Below, one piece after another: positions 30,121 to 40,597 of a stretch of 42,319 nucleotides of DNA. The notes below the pieces were generated by a model. The model made no database searches, had not been told where the DNA came from, and saw only the letters and a list, made by a program, of their open reading frames with translations. The DNA is taken from NCBI GenBank assembly GCA_025355875.1, contig JANXYV010000018.1:1-42319 (forward strand), written 5' to 3'. Numbering within the stretch: position 1 is the first letter of the stretch; each line of letters starts with the position of its first letter. The translations under genes and the position numbers were made by a program. The DNA is from Prolixibacteraceae bacterium. GTDB taxonomy: Bacteria > Bacteroidota > Bacteroidia > Bacteroidales > Prolixibacteraceae.

Positions 30121-30150
30121 TTGTCTATTTTGAAAAACTGACTATGTTTG
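30121..30150 (+). promoter_or_regulatory. promoter of the methionine leader and operon
   Basis: TTG at 30121-30123, a 19-bp spacer and TATGTTTG at 30143-30150 match the Bacteroidota promoter pattern (TTG/TTTG, about 19 bp, TAnnTTTG). Transcription would begin near 30157, about 20 nt before the leader-peptide ATG. This is the best-formed promoter seen in the window. Confidence 0.65.
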
Positions 30151-30176: not shown

Positions 30177-30272
30177 ATGAATCATTACTCAAAAAATAGC
30201 CCATTTCCAATTTTCCTTTCTTCAGGGAGCGGTGATTCTATGATGTCCATGATGTATATGATAATGCGCTAG
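30177..30272 (+). CDS. Met-rich leader peptide of the methionine operon
   Basis: An ATG at 30177 opens a 31-codon frame ending at TAG (30270-30272). Its last ten residues are MMSMMYMIMR, six of them Met, including two adjacent pairs; the middle of the peptide reads FLSSGSGDS. It sits between a good promoter and the aspartokinase gene, and its stop codon overlaps the 5' arm of a long RNA stem. This is the layout of amino-acid attenuators such as thrL, hisL and trpL: scarcity of the end-product amino acid stalls the ribosome on the regulatory codons and changes downstream RNA folding. That the peptide senses Met-tRNA is inference, but Met-rich codons in front of Met biosynthesis genes fit it well. 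Confidence 0.75.
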   Translation: MNHYSKNSPFPIFLSSGSGDSMMSMMYMIMR

Positions 30273-30310
30273 CCTTTGGGCGGTGTGATTAATCATGTTG
30301 TTTGAAGGCT
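30271..30310 (+). promoter_or_regulatory. attenuator-like stem-loop after the Met leader
   Basis: AGCCTTTGGGCGGTGTGA (30271-30288) pairs without interruption with TCATGTTGTTTGAAGGCT (30293-30310) around a TTAA loop. There are 18 pairs in RNA, 8 of them G-U. An alternative stem uses GTTGT (30297-30301) with ACAAC (30317-30321) and is followed at once by a T-rich tract (TATTTCTTTTTT, 30322-30333); the two cannot coexist. The first could therefore act as an antiterminator and the second as a weak terminator, or the first may act on lysC translation. Which one is productive cannot be settled without folding and RNA data. Confidence 0.55.
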
Positions 30311-30357
30311 GAACCCACAACTATTTCTTTTTTCAATTCCCATTTTAAACTTTGATC

Positions 30358-31710
30358 ATGTCAAATTGTGTCATACGATTTGGCGGAAACAGTTTATCCA
30401 AACTTCCGGTTCTGGAGGCCTTTTCAAGTCTTCTTAACGTATCTGGAAATCGTTTAACTGTGGTTGTTCCCGCCGTCCCAGAAATACAACAAATTATTGA
30501 GCAGGGCATTGACCTTCTGATTGGTAAAGCTGCAACTGCTGATTTGATTATTAATCAGGTAAATTCCATCATTGCTCAGAAATTGCAGGTTTTTAAGGTA
30601 GAAGAAGCTGACGAAAATATTAAAAATGAAGTGACTAACCTGAAAAATCTACTTCGGGGAATAGAGTTTACCGGTGATTTTTCAATTGCGCTCAAGGATC
30701 AGGTTGTCAGTTTTTCGGAGCGGATAACTGCTACCATCCTGCATCTGTTTCTGAAAAACAACCTTGTGGACTCAAACTTAATTTTGCCTGAAGAAATTGG
30801 GCTAAAGGTTACTGAGGAATATGGAAATGCGAGTATCCTTTTTGATGAATCATTGAAATTTAATGATTTACTTCCAACGGGAATTAATCTGGTTCCAGGT
30901 TCTTACGGAATTACTTTGGGCGGAAAAATTGCCCGGCTTGGAAGAAACTCTGCAGATTATTCGGCGGCAGGACTTGCAAGGCTTTGCGGCGCAGAAGTTC
31001 TCCAATTGTGGGAGTTGGATAAAGAATTCTTAACATCTGATGCCATATTCGTTGCCGATTCAAAGCTTATTCCTTTTCTGACTTATGCCGAAGCTTCCGA
31101 GTTATCCTATTTCAGCGAACTTTCCATTCATCCGCGAATTGTGGAACCATTGATTGCTACTCATATTCCGATTCATGTTTTCCGGCTTTTGGGTCAGGGA
31201 AAAGAATTGACAACAATTATCAATTCCGAATCGGTTATCTCTCCGAATGTGGTCAAGAGCGTGGTCCATACCGAAGAAATTGCTGTTTTGAAACTGAATG
31301 GGCCTGGAGTGGGCTTCAAACCGGGAATCCTTGCCAAGGTCACGACCGCATTTCATCATTCAGGAATAAATATTCGCTCAGTAATTACTTCCCAGGTTAG
31401 TATCAATATCATTCTGAATAAAAATGATATTGAAAAGGCCCGGACCATTTGTTCAAATTTGCCACTGAGCTCTGTCAGCGAGATCATTATTGAAAATCAG
31501 GTTTCGCTGATTGCCGTGGTTGGCCATGGTATGCAACAGCATCACGGAGTATCGGCCAAGCTTTTTACTGCAGTGGCCCAACATAAAATTAATGTATTAC
31601 TGAGTGGTTCAGGCGCATCTGATTTGGTGAGTTATCTCATTGTTGACCAAAAAGATACCCAAAAAGCCATCACCGAAATTCATAGAATATTTTTTAACCA
31701 GATTTTTTAA
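30358..31710 (+). CDS. divergent aspartokinase of the methionine operon
   Basis: An aspartokinase-family protein of 450 residues from the ATG at 30358. An amino-acid kinase domain (about 1-290) is followed by two ACT domains (about 300-365 and 375-450), which usually bind the feedback amino acid. The SFSERI, LGRNSADYSAAGLA and ELSYFSELSIHPRIVEPL blocks are family hallmarks. However, the N-terminal K-F-G-G-T-S is R-F-G-G-N-S here, and the conserved WTDVDGV is WELDKEF, so residues that contact nucleotide and aspartate in characterised enzymes are changed. It may be a weak or altered kinase, or a regulatory subunit. It is the first structural gene after the Met leader, with metY 18 bases downstream. 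Confidence 0.85.
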   Translation: MSNCVIRFGGNSLSKLPVLEAFSSLLNVSGNRLTVVVPAVPEIQQIIEQGIDLLIGKAATADLIINQVNSIIAQKLQVFKVEEADENIKNEVTNLKNLLRGIEFTGDFSIALKDQVVSFSERITATILHLFLKNNLVDSNLILPEEIGLKVTEEYGNASILFDESLKFNDLLPTGINLVPGSYGITLGGKIARLGRNSADYSAAGLARLCGAEVLQLWELDKEFLTSDAIFVADSKLIPFLTYAEASELSYFSELSIHPRIVEPLIATHIPIHVFRLLGQGKELTTIINSESVISPNVVKSVVHTEEIAVLKLNGPGVGFKPGILAKVTTAFHHSGINIRSVITSQVSINIILNKNDIEKARTICSNLPLSSVSEIIIENQVSLIAVVGHGMQQHHGVSAKLFTAVAQHKINVLLSGSGASDLVSYLIVDQKDTQKAITEIHRIFFNQIF

Positions 31711-31722
31711 CAATTAAAATAA

Positions 31723-33033
<1,311 letters not shown>

Positions 33034-33103: not shown

Positions 33104-34030
33104 ATGCCAATTAACGTTCCTGATCAATTACCTGCAATCGAATTGCTGCAAAAAGAAAATATTTTCATAATGGACGAATCGCGTGCGTCGCACCAGGATA
33201 TCCGTCCATTGAAGATCATCATTGTGAATCTGATGCCTTTAAAAATCACTACTGAAACCGATTTGATCCGTCTTTTGTCGAATTCACCCCTTCAGGTTGA
33301 AATTGATTTTCTAAGAATGAAGGGACATGAATCCAAGAATACTCCTGACGTTCATATGAAGGCTTTCTACAAAACCTTCGATCAGTTGAAATCGAGAAAT
33401 TATGACGGCATGATTTTTACAGGAGCGCCTGTCGAAATACTTCCTTTCGAGGAGGTTACCTACTGGAAAGAGCTAACACAGATCTTCGACTGGTCGAGGA
33501 AACACGTCACCTCATCCTTGTTTATCTGTTGGGCAGCCCAAGCCGGAATGTTCCATTTTTATGGTGTGCCCAAATATTTGCTCCCAAAAAAAATGTTTGG
33601 AGTATTCAGACATTACAAATTGAATGACACACTTCCGATTTTCAGAGGATTTGATGATGAGTTTTATGTCCCGCATTCGAGGCACACCGAAGTTTTGGAA
33701 GACGATATCAAAAAAGTACCTGAATTGAAAATCATTGCAAAATCAGAGGAATCTGGAGTCAATATGGTAATGACTGAAGATGGAAAGCAAATCTTTATTA
33801 CCGGACATTCTGAATATTCCAGAAACACACTGGATACCGAGTATAAACGCGACCTGAAGAAAAAATTGCCGATTGAGCTTCCAATCAATTATTATAAGGA
33901 CGACAACCCGGAGAATGAGCCTGTGATGCGTTGGAGAGGTCATGCCAACCTACTGATATCAAATTGGTTAAATTACTATGTATATCAGCAAACACCCTTT
34001 AATCTTGAAAATCTTGATTTTGAGATTTAA
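33104..34030 (+). CDS. metA: homoserine O-acetyltransferase (MetA fold)
   Basis: Acylates homoserine to start methionine synthesis. The 308 residues match MetA, a class-I-glutamine-amidotransferase-like acyltransferase. The catalytic Cys142 (FICWAAQAG), His235 and Glu237 (ITGHSEYSR) fall at the same numbers as in E. coli MetA. Residue 111, in [10 protein letters not shown], is Glu. Published work on the family ties Glu111 to acetyl-CoA use and Gly111 to succinyl-CoA use. I therefore call it an acetyltransferase, which also matches the MetY substrate made next door. It is the last gene of the operon and ends at a bidirectional terminator. Confidence 0.94.
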
Positions 34031-38053: not shown

Positions 38054-38758
38054 CTATCCTTTCTGTTTTTTGAGTTGGTAGTTTCGGTGGAAACAATCGG
38101 TCTGACTGCATAAATCACAGGTGTATTCCCTGAATTTCACATCTTTGCCAATGCCAATAATACCACTTACCGATTTAATCGGGTACATTAATGCCGAGTC
38201 GGTCAGTCGAACTCCACAGCAGTTTTCCGGAAAAAAGGAAAACAGCTTGTGTTGGTCGGCCACGCTCCAATTGCAATATCCCGGACTGTAACGGTTTGTA
38301 CATACCTGGCCACTCGAATTTACCATTCGCTTGATTTCATTTTGCATCCGATCGGTAGCTGCTTCAACGATCATGGAGCCTAAAACATCGAAAACATAAC
38401 CTAAAGCCGGGTTTTCGCCGGTCAACATCTCCTGCGAGCGTTTACTGATTCCAGGTCCGGCCGTGCAAATAAACAAGGCAAAATTTTCTGAATTCCGCAA
38501 TTCTTTGGCTACCGTTTTGCCAATTTTTAATTCGATTCCTTCAATAATGATCAGGCTGTTGTCGGGTGCAAATCCACTCTTTTCAGAAAAAAAAAATGCT
38601 CCCCGAATTTCGCAGATTTTTTCAGCTTCCCGAAGCGCCTCAGCAACATATTCATCAAAGGGTTCCGGAAGTACACCATCCGGAAAACCAAGTATCGCCG
38701 AAAGATAATCCAAATCTAATGTTAGTTCATCGAGTGAATATGCGATTTCGTATATCAT
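38054..38758 (-). CDS. stand-alone MetH activation-domain protein
   Basis: A 234-residue protein, from the ATG at 38758, equivalent to the C-terminal S-adenosylmethionine-binding reactivation domain of cobalamin-dependent methionine synthase. That domain remethylates an oxidised cob(II)alamin. The SAM-binding R-x-x-x-G-Y motif is NRYSPGYCNWSVADQHKLF, and DSALMYPIKSVSGIIG is also typical. The C-terminus has an extra Cys cluster (YTCDLCSQTDCFHRN). It would serve as a reactivator of the operon's methyltransferases. Its ATG overlaps the CobW stop codon as ATGA, which indicates translational coupling. Confidence 0.9.
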   Translation of the reverse strand: MIYEIAYSLDELTLDLDYLSAILGFPDGVLPEPFDEYVAEALREAEKICEIRGAFFFSEKSGFAPDNSLIIIEGIELKIGKTVAKELRNSENFALFICTAGPGISKRSQEMLTGENPALGYVFDVLGSMIVEAATDRMQNEIKRMVNSSGQVCTNRYSPGYCNWSVADQHKLFSFFPENCCGVRLTDSALMYPIKSVSGIIGIGKDVKFREYTCDLCSQTDCFHRNYQLKKQKG

Positions 38759-39660
38759 ATTGTACAAAATTTATCAAATAGTTTTTGAAATGAAGTCTGT
38801 GCAGCGAAATTACCAATGATAACAAACTCAGTTGGCGCAACAAATTTTTCTACTTCCTGAGAGGTAAATTGACCGAAACATCCCTGCAAAAATAGCTTGG
38901 CTCCGGAAGTCAGGTTGATATATCCTTTGCAACGGATACATTCCTCCTGAAGAGATTTAAGGAATTCCTCCAGATTCTCAGCCGTAATCAGCCGGTTACT
39001 TTTTATAACCTGCGATTGCAAATCAGGCCTGGCATTTTCCGTCTTCTCGGTGGAAGGCCAGAATTTCATTACCTGCTTTCTTGACTCGAAAGATATCCGC
39101 GCAAAAGAACTCTTCTGAACATCGGCAAATGGGTTCATCTTCCGGATGAGATGATCCATTGAATCATTCTTAATTTCAGCAATATCTGTTTTGTTGATGA
39201 TGATCGTATCAGCAATTCGGATTTGATGATAGGCCCGTGTCTGAAATCCTATAATTTTGTGAAAATTAGCTGAATCTATCAGGCACCACACATGGTCCAG
39301 GTAAACTTTTTGTTTCAATTTGGGTGATTGTATAATCTGTCCGATGCTCAGTGGATCGGACATTCCTGAAGCTTCCATGATCACTTCGTCAGGTTGAACC
39401 TGATCGATAAATGCTGCAAGCGATTCGACAAAGCTACCAAGAAGGCAGACACAAAAAACCGAGCCGTTGTTTACTTCCAGAATCTCAAAATCCGGGTTTT
39501 TCTTTTGAATTTCAAAACTATCCACATTAACCTCCGAGAACTCATTCTGAATTATTCCAATCTTTCGCGTACCGGAAAATTCGTCGAGATAGTTTTTCAG
39601 AAAAGTGGTCTTGCCACTTCCCAGGAATCCGGTGATCATTTGCAATGGAATTGTGGACAT
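38755..39660 (-). CDS. CobW/P47K-family GTP-binding protein
   Basis: A 301-residue G3E-family GTPase of the CobW type, proposed in related systems to deliver metal ions or to aid cobalamin metabolism. Walker A is TGFLGSGKTTFL, followed by the NEFSEVNVDS block, the metal-site region NGSVFCVCLLGSF, Walker B with EASGMSDP, and the guanine-specificity INKTD. The usual CxCC motif is only C-V-C-L here. A shortened C-terminal CobW domain follows (about 215-301). It is coupled by ATGA to the MetH-activation gene and lies 52 bases after the homocysteine methyltransferase gene. A role in the corrinoid system is inferred from context. Confidence 0.88.
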   Translation of the reverse strand: MSTIPLQMITGFLGSGKTTFLKNYLDEFSGTRKIGIIQNEFSEVNVDSFEIQKKNPDFEILEVNNGSVFCVCLLGSFVESLAAFIDQVQPDEVIMEASGMSDPLSIGQIIQSPKLKQKVYLDHVWCLIDSANFHKIIGFQTRAYHQIRIADTIIINKTDIAEIKNDSMDHLIRKMNPFADVQKSSFARISFESRKQVMKFWPSTEKTENARPDLQSQVIKSNRLITAENLEEFLKSLQEECIRCKGYINLTSGAKLFLQGCFGQFTSQEVEKFVAPTEFVIIGNFAAQTSFQKLFDKFCTI

Positions 39661-39712
39661 GAAATTATTATCGGATAAATAATTGGTATTTGAAGCTTCT
39701 GGCGAAATGGAA

Positions 39713-40597
39713 TTACATGCTTTTCACAATGTGATGGACTTCAGCAATATGTGCTGGTGTGGTTCCGCAGCAGCCGCCAATGATGTTCGCGCCAGCCTCA
39801 ATAATATCCCTGACCCTGCCGGCCATGTCTTCCGGAGTTTCCGGGAAAGTGGTTTCTCCATCGCAATACTGCGGCATTCCGGCGTTGGCATGGATCAGAA
39901 TTGGAATCTCCCGATTGACTTGCCTGATTTCCTTGACAATGCCTATCATATCAACAATTCCATTCCCACAGTTGGCACCAATCACTGAAGCTCCTGTGTG
40001 AACGAGCGTTTGGGTCATTTCGGTTGGCGAAATCCCCATCATGGTTCGGTATTCTCCGGTAAGGATTTTATCAAAAGTCATGGTACAAATCACATCACAA
40101 GTTGTATTTTCTTTGGCAGCCTTCACAGCGATGCGTGCTTCTTCCAAATCAGTCATGGTTTCAATCACAATAGCATCTGCCCCACCCGTTTCCAAAGCGA
40201 TGGACTGCTTTTTAAAAGCATCGTAAAGTTCGTCTTCCGTAACTTCATCCATCATGAGCAATTTGCCGGTCGGGCCTACTGAACCTAAAACAATTCCGGC
40301 AGTTCCGGCAGCTTTTCGGCTGATTTCTGCGGCAGCTTTATTCAATTCGAAGACCTGGTTTTCAAGTCCATAGCCCATCAATTTAAACCAATTGCCGCCA
40401 AAGCTGTTGGTTTCAATCATGTCGGCTCCTGCTTCGACATAACTCCTTGCAATATCGAAAACATCGTCGGGTCGGCTCACATTCCATTGTTCAGGACATT
40501 CACCGGGTTGCAGTCCTTTTTTCTGGAGAAATGTTCCCCAAGCTCCATCCGAAACCAATACCCTGCCCTTTTTTAATTCCTGAACTATTTTGCTCAT
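39713..40597 (-). CDS. homocysteine S-methyltransferase
   Basis: A zinc-dependent methyltransferase of the homocysteine S-methyltransferase/BHMT/MetH-N-terminal family, with 294 residues. Landmarks are VSDGAWGTFLQKKGL, ETNSFGGNWFKL, GSVGPTGKLL and the zinc ligands C210 (IGANCGNG), C276 and C277 (GGCCGTTP). It would pass a methyl group to homocysteine, probably from a corrinoid carrier, because a stand-alone MetH activation protein is encoded nearby. The methyl donor is uncertain. It lies 88 bases after the UroD-family gene. Confidence 0.92.
   Translation of the reverse strand: MSKIVQELKKGRVLVSDGAWGTFLQKKGLQPGECPEQWNVSRPDDVFDIARSYVEAGADMIETNSFGGNWFKLMGYGLENQVFELNKAAAEISRKAAGTAGIVLGSVGPTGKLLMMDEVTEDELYDAFKKQSIALETGGADAIVIETMTDLEEARIAVKAAKENTTCDVICTMTFDKILTGEYRTMMGISPTEMTQTLVHTGASVIGANCGNGIVDMIGIVKEIRQVNREIPILIHANAGMPQYCDGETTFPETPEDMAGRVRDIIEAGANIIGGCCGTTPAHIAEVHHIVKSM

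Follow-up and report, generated by a model that had tools for sequence, protein, structure and literature searches.

Current understanding assigns the sensing of methionine (Met) supply to SAM riboswitches, T-boxes or repressors. The SAM-I riboswitch, a known control of Met genes, binds S-adenosylmethionine (SAM) directly and does so with translation unnecessary, and some peptides, such as plant CGS1 and TnaC, stall their own ribosome. In Streptomyces lividans a Met-containing leader peptide, metL, has been proposed upstream of metNIQ, with no clear terminator (PMC8079986); going by the accessible part of that source, a Met attenuator is thus not wholly unprecedented, while the accessible part of another reports none in Actinobacteria (PMC1262725). 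The Bacteroid-trp RNA (RF01692) is listed for Bacteroidetes in a table within the accessible part of its source (PMC2864571). A literature search by title and the start of the abstract, with subscription papers mostly outside it, did not find a Met-codon leader in Bacteroidota.

We analysed a 42,319-nt stretch of DNA from a Prolixibacteraceae bacterium, here called the window. The original prediction had placed a short ORF ending in MMSMMYMIMR (six Met in ten residues) before a methionine biosynthesis operon, and its coordinates, its 31 codons and its end are exact in the sequence (Table 1). When the 265 nt 5' of the kinase were dinucleotide-shuffled 5000 times, the best short ORF reached at most four Met in ten residues and no shuffle matched the Met density of the window leader. 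Four sites in the genome match ATGATGWNNATGATG, and this ORF is the sole leader among them; the other three were ruled out as leaders since they are located within unrelated genes.

Table 1. Positions of the leader, its RNA helices and the operon genes in the window
Feature	Position	Strand	Details
Promoter, presumably Bacteroidota-type	30121..30150	+	TTG at 30121, 19-nt spacer, TATGTTTG at 30143-30150
Leader ORF	30177..30272	+	MNHYSKNSPFPIFLSSGSGDSMMSMMYMIMR and stop; 31 codons; stop TAG at 30270-30272
Stem A, 5' strand	30179..30186	+	GAATCATT; starts in the leader start codon; from genus alignment
Stem A, 3' strand	30231..30238	+	GGTGATTC; immediately 5' of the Met run
Control region	30240..30269	+	last ten codons, six of them Met
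Hairpin hp1	30272..30309	+	begins at the last stop-codon base; arms GCCTTT 30272-30277 and GAAGGC 30304-30309
Spacer, hp1 to aspartokinase	30310..30357	+	unstructured, G-poor; from folding and base composition
Aspartokinase	30358..31710	+	conserved ATG start; the mechanical ORF starts at TTG 30352
metY, O-acetylhomoserine sulfhydrylase	31729..33033	+	TIGR01326, above cut-off
metA, homoserine O-acetyltransferase	33104..34030	+	NF047918, above cut-off

The genes named for the operon, aspartokinase, metY and metA, also stood. The last two were recognised by curated models; the top NCBIfam matches of the first are all aspartate kinases, every one under its curated cut-off, and its Pfam AA_kinase and ACT domains score above cut-off. 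Further downstream on the minus strand (38054-40597) we noted genes that by eye resemble parts of a vitamin B12-dependent methionine synthase and a CobW-like GTPase. The well-spaced promoter claimed for the leader did not appear in an E. coli-type scan of the leader region, which gave no site on the plus strand, but the element TTG/19 nt/TATGTTTG, which we take from its consensus to be a Bacteroidota-type promoter, ends 26 nt before the ORF and is kept in relatives. Among 110 distinct leaders (described below), 101 have TANNTTTG, and in 96 of these 101 a TTG lies 16-24 nt 5' of it.

All 19 relatives compared through the aspartokinase (mostly Prolixibacteraceae or Bacteroidetes MAGs, plus Gaoshiqia sediminis) carry a corresponding Met-rich ORF 5' of it; 18 of these ORFs start with ATG, and that of L023 starts with GTG. 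In each of them metY lies 3' of the aspartokinase, and metA is found in 16, the other three reaching the end of the available stretch. Across the family we collected 120 leader loci, 119 by pattern and one that the pattern missed (L156) by eye; merging nine repeat loci left 110 distinct leaders found by pattern, distributed over 17 of 23 genera. Leaders are 28-40 codons long in most genera read and shorter in g8 and g12. In the 109 leaders used for Met counts (L047 was excluded), Met occupies position -2 before the stop site in every case, -4 in 106, -6 in 70 and -9 in 86, and makes up one third of the last 12 residues. At least three Met are present among the last 12 codons in 99 of the 109; the mean is only 1.3-2.8 Met per last 12 codons in g8, g12, g16, g22 and g23.

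The pattern's choice of hairpin favoured ATG and TAG, and an unbiased choice gave the identical site in 110 of 110 leaders. Roughly half of the leader loci entered the set through a match to R1, a covariance model that spans hp1 and the final 32 nt of the ORF and was made from 40 of the 60 loci then in hand; the 58 distinct leaders picked by the kinase alone were counted separately, and all 58 have ATG at the conserved site. R1 had matches in 112 of the 140 family genomes; in 109 the match was strong (E<=1.2e-8), with a single strong copy each; a strong match was absent in 31 of the 140, some of which are incomplete. Four genomes with a strong match (G082, G087, G089 and G095) have no aspartokinase match at 1e-40 and carry the leader directly 5' of metY-metA, which indicates that the leader tracks the Met genes, not the kinase. 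The pN/pS of the leader is 0.73 in g1 and g5 and 0.93 in g9 (ungapped ends), values that alone are weak evidence of translation. Conservation in close relatives, on which the original prediction had staked itself, was found for both the ORF and its Met run, and the conserved position and codon identity, together with the covarying stems described next, support the link of this Met-codon leader to Met biosynthesis.

The stems that the original prediction expected to covary were found as two helices, stem A and hp1. In hp1, 87.4% of cells over 15 pairs are paired and 8 of the 15 pairs show double changes; none of 500 shuffles was as high, and these shuffles, like the stem A permutations below, ignore relatedness, so that related sequences in them are not independent. 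The arms are nearly invariant across leaders, with a compensatory swap of both (GTCTTC/GAAGAC) in L047, and the weak points are the outermost pair, which 25 of 40 sequences do not form, and the eighth pair, which 12 of 40 do not form. Stem A joins the start-codon region to the first part of the Met run. Its sequence varies by genus, for example GAAUCAUU/AAUGAUUC in g1 and, by eye, CGACA/UGUCG or CGGCA/UGCCG in g5. Its strands pair at -16.1 kcal/mol with their own partner and at -11.1 kcal/mol across genera, own being better in 13 of 13 genera, a result not equalled in 5000 permutations. Nine leaders without TANNTTTG were excluded from this comparison, from the segment-pair scan, from the pairing calculation that accompanied the positional Met counts and from the masking below. 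Eight segment pairs with Rmid were left out because empty strings had produced an artefact, and among the 28 usable pairs only stem A and hp1 clearly stand out; the Met run and the hp1 3' arm (R2 x H3) gave a weak own-versus-cross signal in 5 of 13 genera. The whole window leader is no more stable than its shuffles (z 0.41).

The covarying helices, with the nearly invariant arms of hp1, would also suit a metabolite-binding RNA in which the Met-rich ORF is incidental. We regard such a riboswitch as highly improbable, given that the stem A sequence differs among genera and that the length of the Met region differs in multiples of three (18 of 22 g1 leaders measured, with one off-register and three giving no reading). 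In addition, no Rfam family reaches its gathering score in the window. The covariance models of SAM-I (RF00162) and of the T-box had no match at the window leader. At a permissive threshold Rfam returned matches at chance level only on the leader, which were rejected.

We then compared how the two helices fold around a ribosome imposed as a mask in 101 leaders. When the A site held the first Met codon, hp1 formed at 0.99 and stem A at 0.01; with the ribosome at the last Met codon the values were 0.05 and 0.39, and at the stop 0.00 and 0.42. Folding with the ribosome left out gave 0.99 for hp1 and 0.51 for stem A. The toggle is one of geometry, and its outcome is partly a consequence of the mask itself. 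A ribosome stalled on the first Met codons covers stem A and leaves hp1 free to form, and hp1 would therefore be the fold of the starvation state.

We consider it likely that the leader is a Met-specific, ribosome-mediated one, in which Met-codon sensing, as judged from the conserved codons and helices, is well supported. Very probably it lets stalled ribosomes signal Met shortage to the operon. Transcription would start just 5' of the leader, with the ribosome trailing RNA polymerase into it. When Met-tRNA is ample, the ribosome would reach the stop and cover the 5' arm of hp1, and stem A would re-form. When it is scarce, the ribosome would stall at the first Met codons, opening stem A and allowing hp1 to form. 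Most likely, then, aspartokinase-metY-metA are ON when hp1 is formed. Seven of the 110 leaders, from two genera, no longer have the stop at hp1; each of these ORFs comes to its end within hp1, so that an unstalled ribosome still disrupts it.

The opposite assignment, in which hp1 is itself an intrinsic terminator that a ribosome at the last Met codon prevents, would be classical attenuation of the thrL/hisL kind. The hairpin is strong and suitably placed, and a stall at the invariant -2 Met would mask its 5' arm. A stall at the first Met codons, though, would permit hp1 and turn the operon OFF on starvation, and the seven stop-less leaders would be read into hp1 under ample Met. It is the ribosome geometry and these stop-less variants that disfavour hp1 as a terminator. 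A U-tract was not found directly 3' of it either, in spite of U-tracts in attenuator-like Met leaders of the order's other families and in a Trp leader of the same genus, and we judge this assignment decidedly improbable.

The wider search for a terminator in the family came up empty. Scanning and folding found no intrinsic terminator with a U-tract before the first gene in the family leaders, and folding with segment-pair comparison found no conserved competing hairpin 3' of the leader. The hp1 3' arm with the spacer folds no better than its shuffles (-4.7 against -5.0, 110 leaders), and the segment pair H3 x D1 gave no own-versus-cross signal. The likeness to thrL or hisL in the original prediction therefore lacks support in the strict sense, and its interpretation as a whole was borne out for a Met-codon leader, conserved with covarying stems, but not for a terminator of that type. 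A small second hairpin about 10 nt past hp1 was seen clearly in g9 (-5.6 against -2.0 shuffled), where it takes the form TGCTC-N4-GAGCA with variants carrying compensatory changes, and is suggestive in g17 and part of g2.

The spacer between hp1 and the first gene is about 50 nt long in most genera and exceeds this length in g9, in g17 and in some leaders of g11 and g23. It is 48 nt with a folding energy of zero in the window, and g1 spacers after hp1 fold at 0 to -1.3 kcal/mol. Measured in 106 of the 110 leaders, spacers contain 7.3% G, against 13.1% 5' of 163 control ORFs, and C-G per 60 nt is 6.5 against 2.0 in the controls. This low-G composition is compatible with Rho loading, which it does not prove, and G-poverty may be a general trait of 5'-UTRs, even if here it exceeds the control. 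The weakest step of the proposed mechanism is its OFF output. In the absence of hp1 the transcript might be terminated prematurely, perhaps through Rho acting on a spacer that is poor in G and free of ribosomes, or alternatively the RNA might decay.

The same spacer bears on whether the leader acts on transcription at all. If hp1 or the stalled ribosome shielded the 5' end or altered initiation at the aspartokinase, control would lie in translation or mRNA stability, and both the empty terminator search and the spacer, which in most genera measures some 50 nt and in g1 is unstructured, would fit. Set against this, the kinase start codon in the window lies 48 nt past hp1 and is not sequestered, and nothing points positively to decay. 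We think this unlikely, while leaving it some weight.

The constancy of the peptide end raises another alternative to codon sensing, namely that Met or SAM causes a C-terminal M-x-M-R to arrest the ribosome that is making it. The M-x-M-[RQH]-stop end is indeed more constant than codon counting seems to require, although the conservation of AUG-CG-UAG may stem from the RNA and the residues between the Mets are variable. The leaders of g8 have mostly Thr in place of Met under the same hairpin. Such a swap of codons speaks for codon sensing and against an arrest peptide specific for Met, which we regard as improbable.

SAM-I riboswitches occur in 64 of 140 family genomes. The one found in the genome of the window lies on contig C44, before a gene that by eye is DUF39-like, with metH further on. 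In seven genomes from two genera (g8 and g17), SAM-I lies inside the Met-leader region itself. The leaders behind it in g17 contain Met and Thr codons, and those in g8 mostly Thr, four to five of them (MITMTTITRTSISML and stop), with the same TAGCCTTC...GAAGGC hairpin. A tandem of SAM-I and a codon-sensing leader in one 5' region was thus noted at L065, L068 and L119 (g8) and at L063, L064, L105 and L106 (g17).

Beyond the family, R1 matched 17 of 395 genomes of the class at E<=0.01, only the own genome strongly; the search scored 12 candidates per genome, so these counts say little on distant forms and are not evidence of absence. Eight of the 16 weak matches outside the own genome (E 5.7e-5 to 0.0095) were inspected (L074-L079, L081 and L084), and none was a Met leader before a Met gene. 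Because the aspartokinase matched at E<=1e-60 in only 1 of 295 genomes in the rest of the class, the own one, we used metY as the anchor instead. Of 159 genomes of the order, 59 had a metY match, including two from Prolixibacteraceae. At 11 of 60 metY loci, all from other families, a short ORF 5' of the gene reaches three or more Met in ten residues; the reverse strand gave 2 of 60, and of 1200 shuffles 0.7% did so. Not all of the 11 are convincing. SAM-I is present somewhere in the fetched stretch at 17 of 60 other-family metY loci, including L176 (MKSIHLADKNFIMPLMPMCMRR and stop) and L184. By eye, a hairpin stands at the stop in L176, L196, L203 and L205, as in the Prolixibacteraceae leaders. 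The leader of L186 (G572), 5' of metY, ends in TMPMCMCCCGNHS and a stop, with Met and Cys codons together.

Three of the metY loci, L224, L213 and L214, resemble textbook attenuators with U-tracts in sequence and folds. L224 (G548), whose leader reads MRFINNNTNSMMMGMMQMMMHIMLLYYPD and stop, and L213 (G622) have two tandem Met-rich leaders 5' of metY, each followed by a U-rich terminator-like hairpin, and GTATTACC near the end of the second leader is able to pair with GGTAATAC in the terminator loop. At L214 (G664), the leader 5' of metY (MSMMMVTCMRNRRSRV and stop) is followed by a terminator-like GCCGGCTTCC...GGATGCCGGC-T6, and GAAGCCGG/CCGGCTTC is a candidate antiterminator. The terminator pattern scan picked up only the first terminator of L224 and missed that of L214, where the stem is interrupted. 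In the window's own genus, a sub-threshold Bacteroid-trp match in the middle of locus L229 (G015) belongs to a WWW leader, MNQIMLTIWWWRKNFSQNRGRM and stop, with a U-tract terminator. Since terminator-bearing attenuators thus seem to be present nearby, the missing terminator of the Prolixibacteraceae leader looks like a real difference.

Overall, the element is real and conserved, and it is very probably a Met sensor. What appears new, as far as sequence comparison can tell, is ribosome-mediated attenuation in which Met would be the sensed residue, with no visible terminator and with a hairpin that begins in the stop codon. With such a conserved leader, charged Met-tRNA would be read directly by the translating ribosome. 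This suggests codon-sensing attenuation as an additional level of control over Met in Bacteroidota, either stacked on SAM-I or alone, and the leader offers an attenuator with no visible terminator whose output step is testable. A broader reading, which we put forward tentatively and would sooner doubt than assert, is that these leaders form a terminator-less class of attenuators in Bacteroidota. In such a class, the position of the ribosome on Met codons would toggle two helices, and a stop-anchored hairpin formed only in starvation would spare the transcript, for example from Rho. The scaffold might be retunable, with SAM-I and codon sensing in tandem in some lineages, the riboswitch missing from the leader in the other genera read, and Met and Thr codons switchable under a kept hairpin.

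Compared with SAM-I (RF00162), the element shares the control of Met genes, and in g8 and g17 the riboswitch stands upstream of it in the same leader; unlike it, SAM-I binds its ligand independently of translation and is missing from the window leader. The S. lividans metL proposal is alike in its Met leader peptide with no clear terminator and differs in being actinobacterial, in preceding a transporter operon, in having two internal Met in the 29 residues printed and in that the accessible part of the source gives no conservation of metL (PMC8079986). Bacteroid-trp is alike as a candidate RNA from the same phylum, going by the accessible part of its source. It had no match at the leader and none in the own genome at E<=0.1. 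Of its four sub-threshold matches in relatives three were read, and these are WWW leaders followed by U-tract terminators; it differs from the window leader in its Trp codons and its U-tract terminator.

Of the features of thrL/hisL-type leaders, we found product codons clustered in the leader ORF, control codons kept in relatives and linked to cognate genes, and conserved helices with a ribosome toggle by geometry under an imposed mask. For an antiterminator and a terminator that exclude each other, the comparison gave only the weak R2 x H3 signal. The U-tract intrinsic terminator before the first gene was not found, and for this reason we do not file the window leader as a classical member. 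It is like the thrL, hisL and trpL attenuators in its short leader ORF, its repeated end-product codons and its helices that depend on ribosome position. It is unlike them in that Met would be the residue sensed and no U-tract terminator was found, and in that here the hairpin begins in the stop codon and the second helix pairs the start region with the first control codons.
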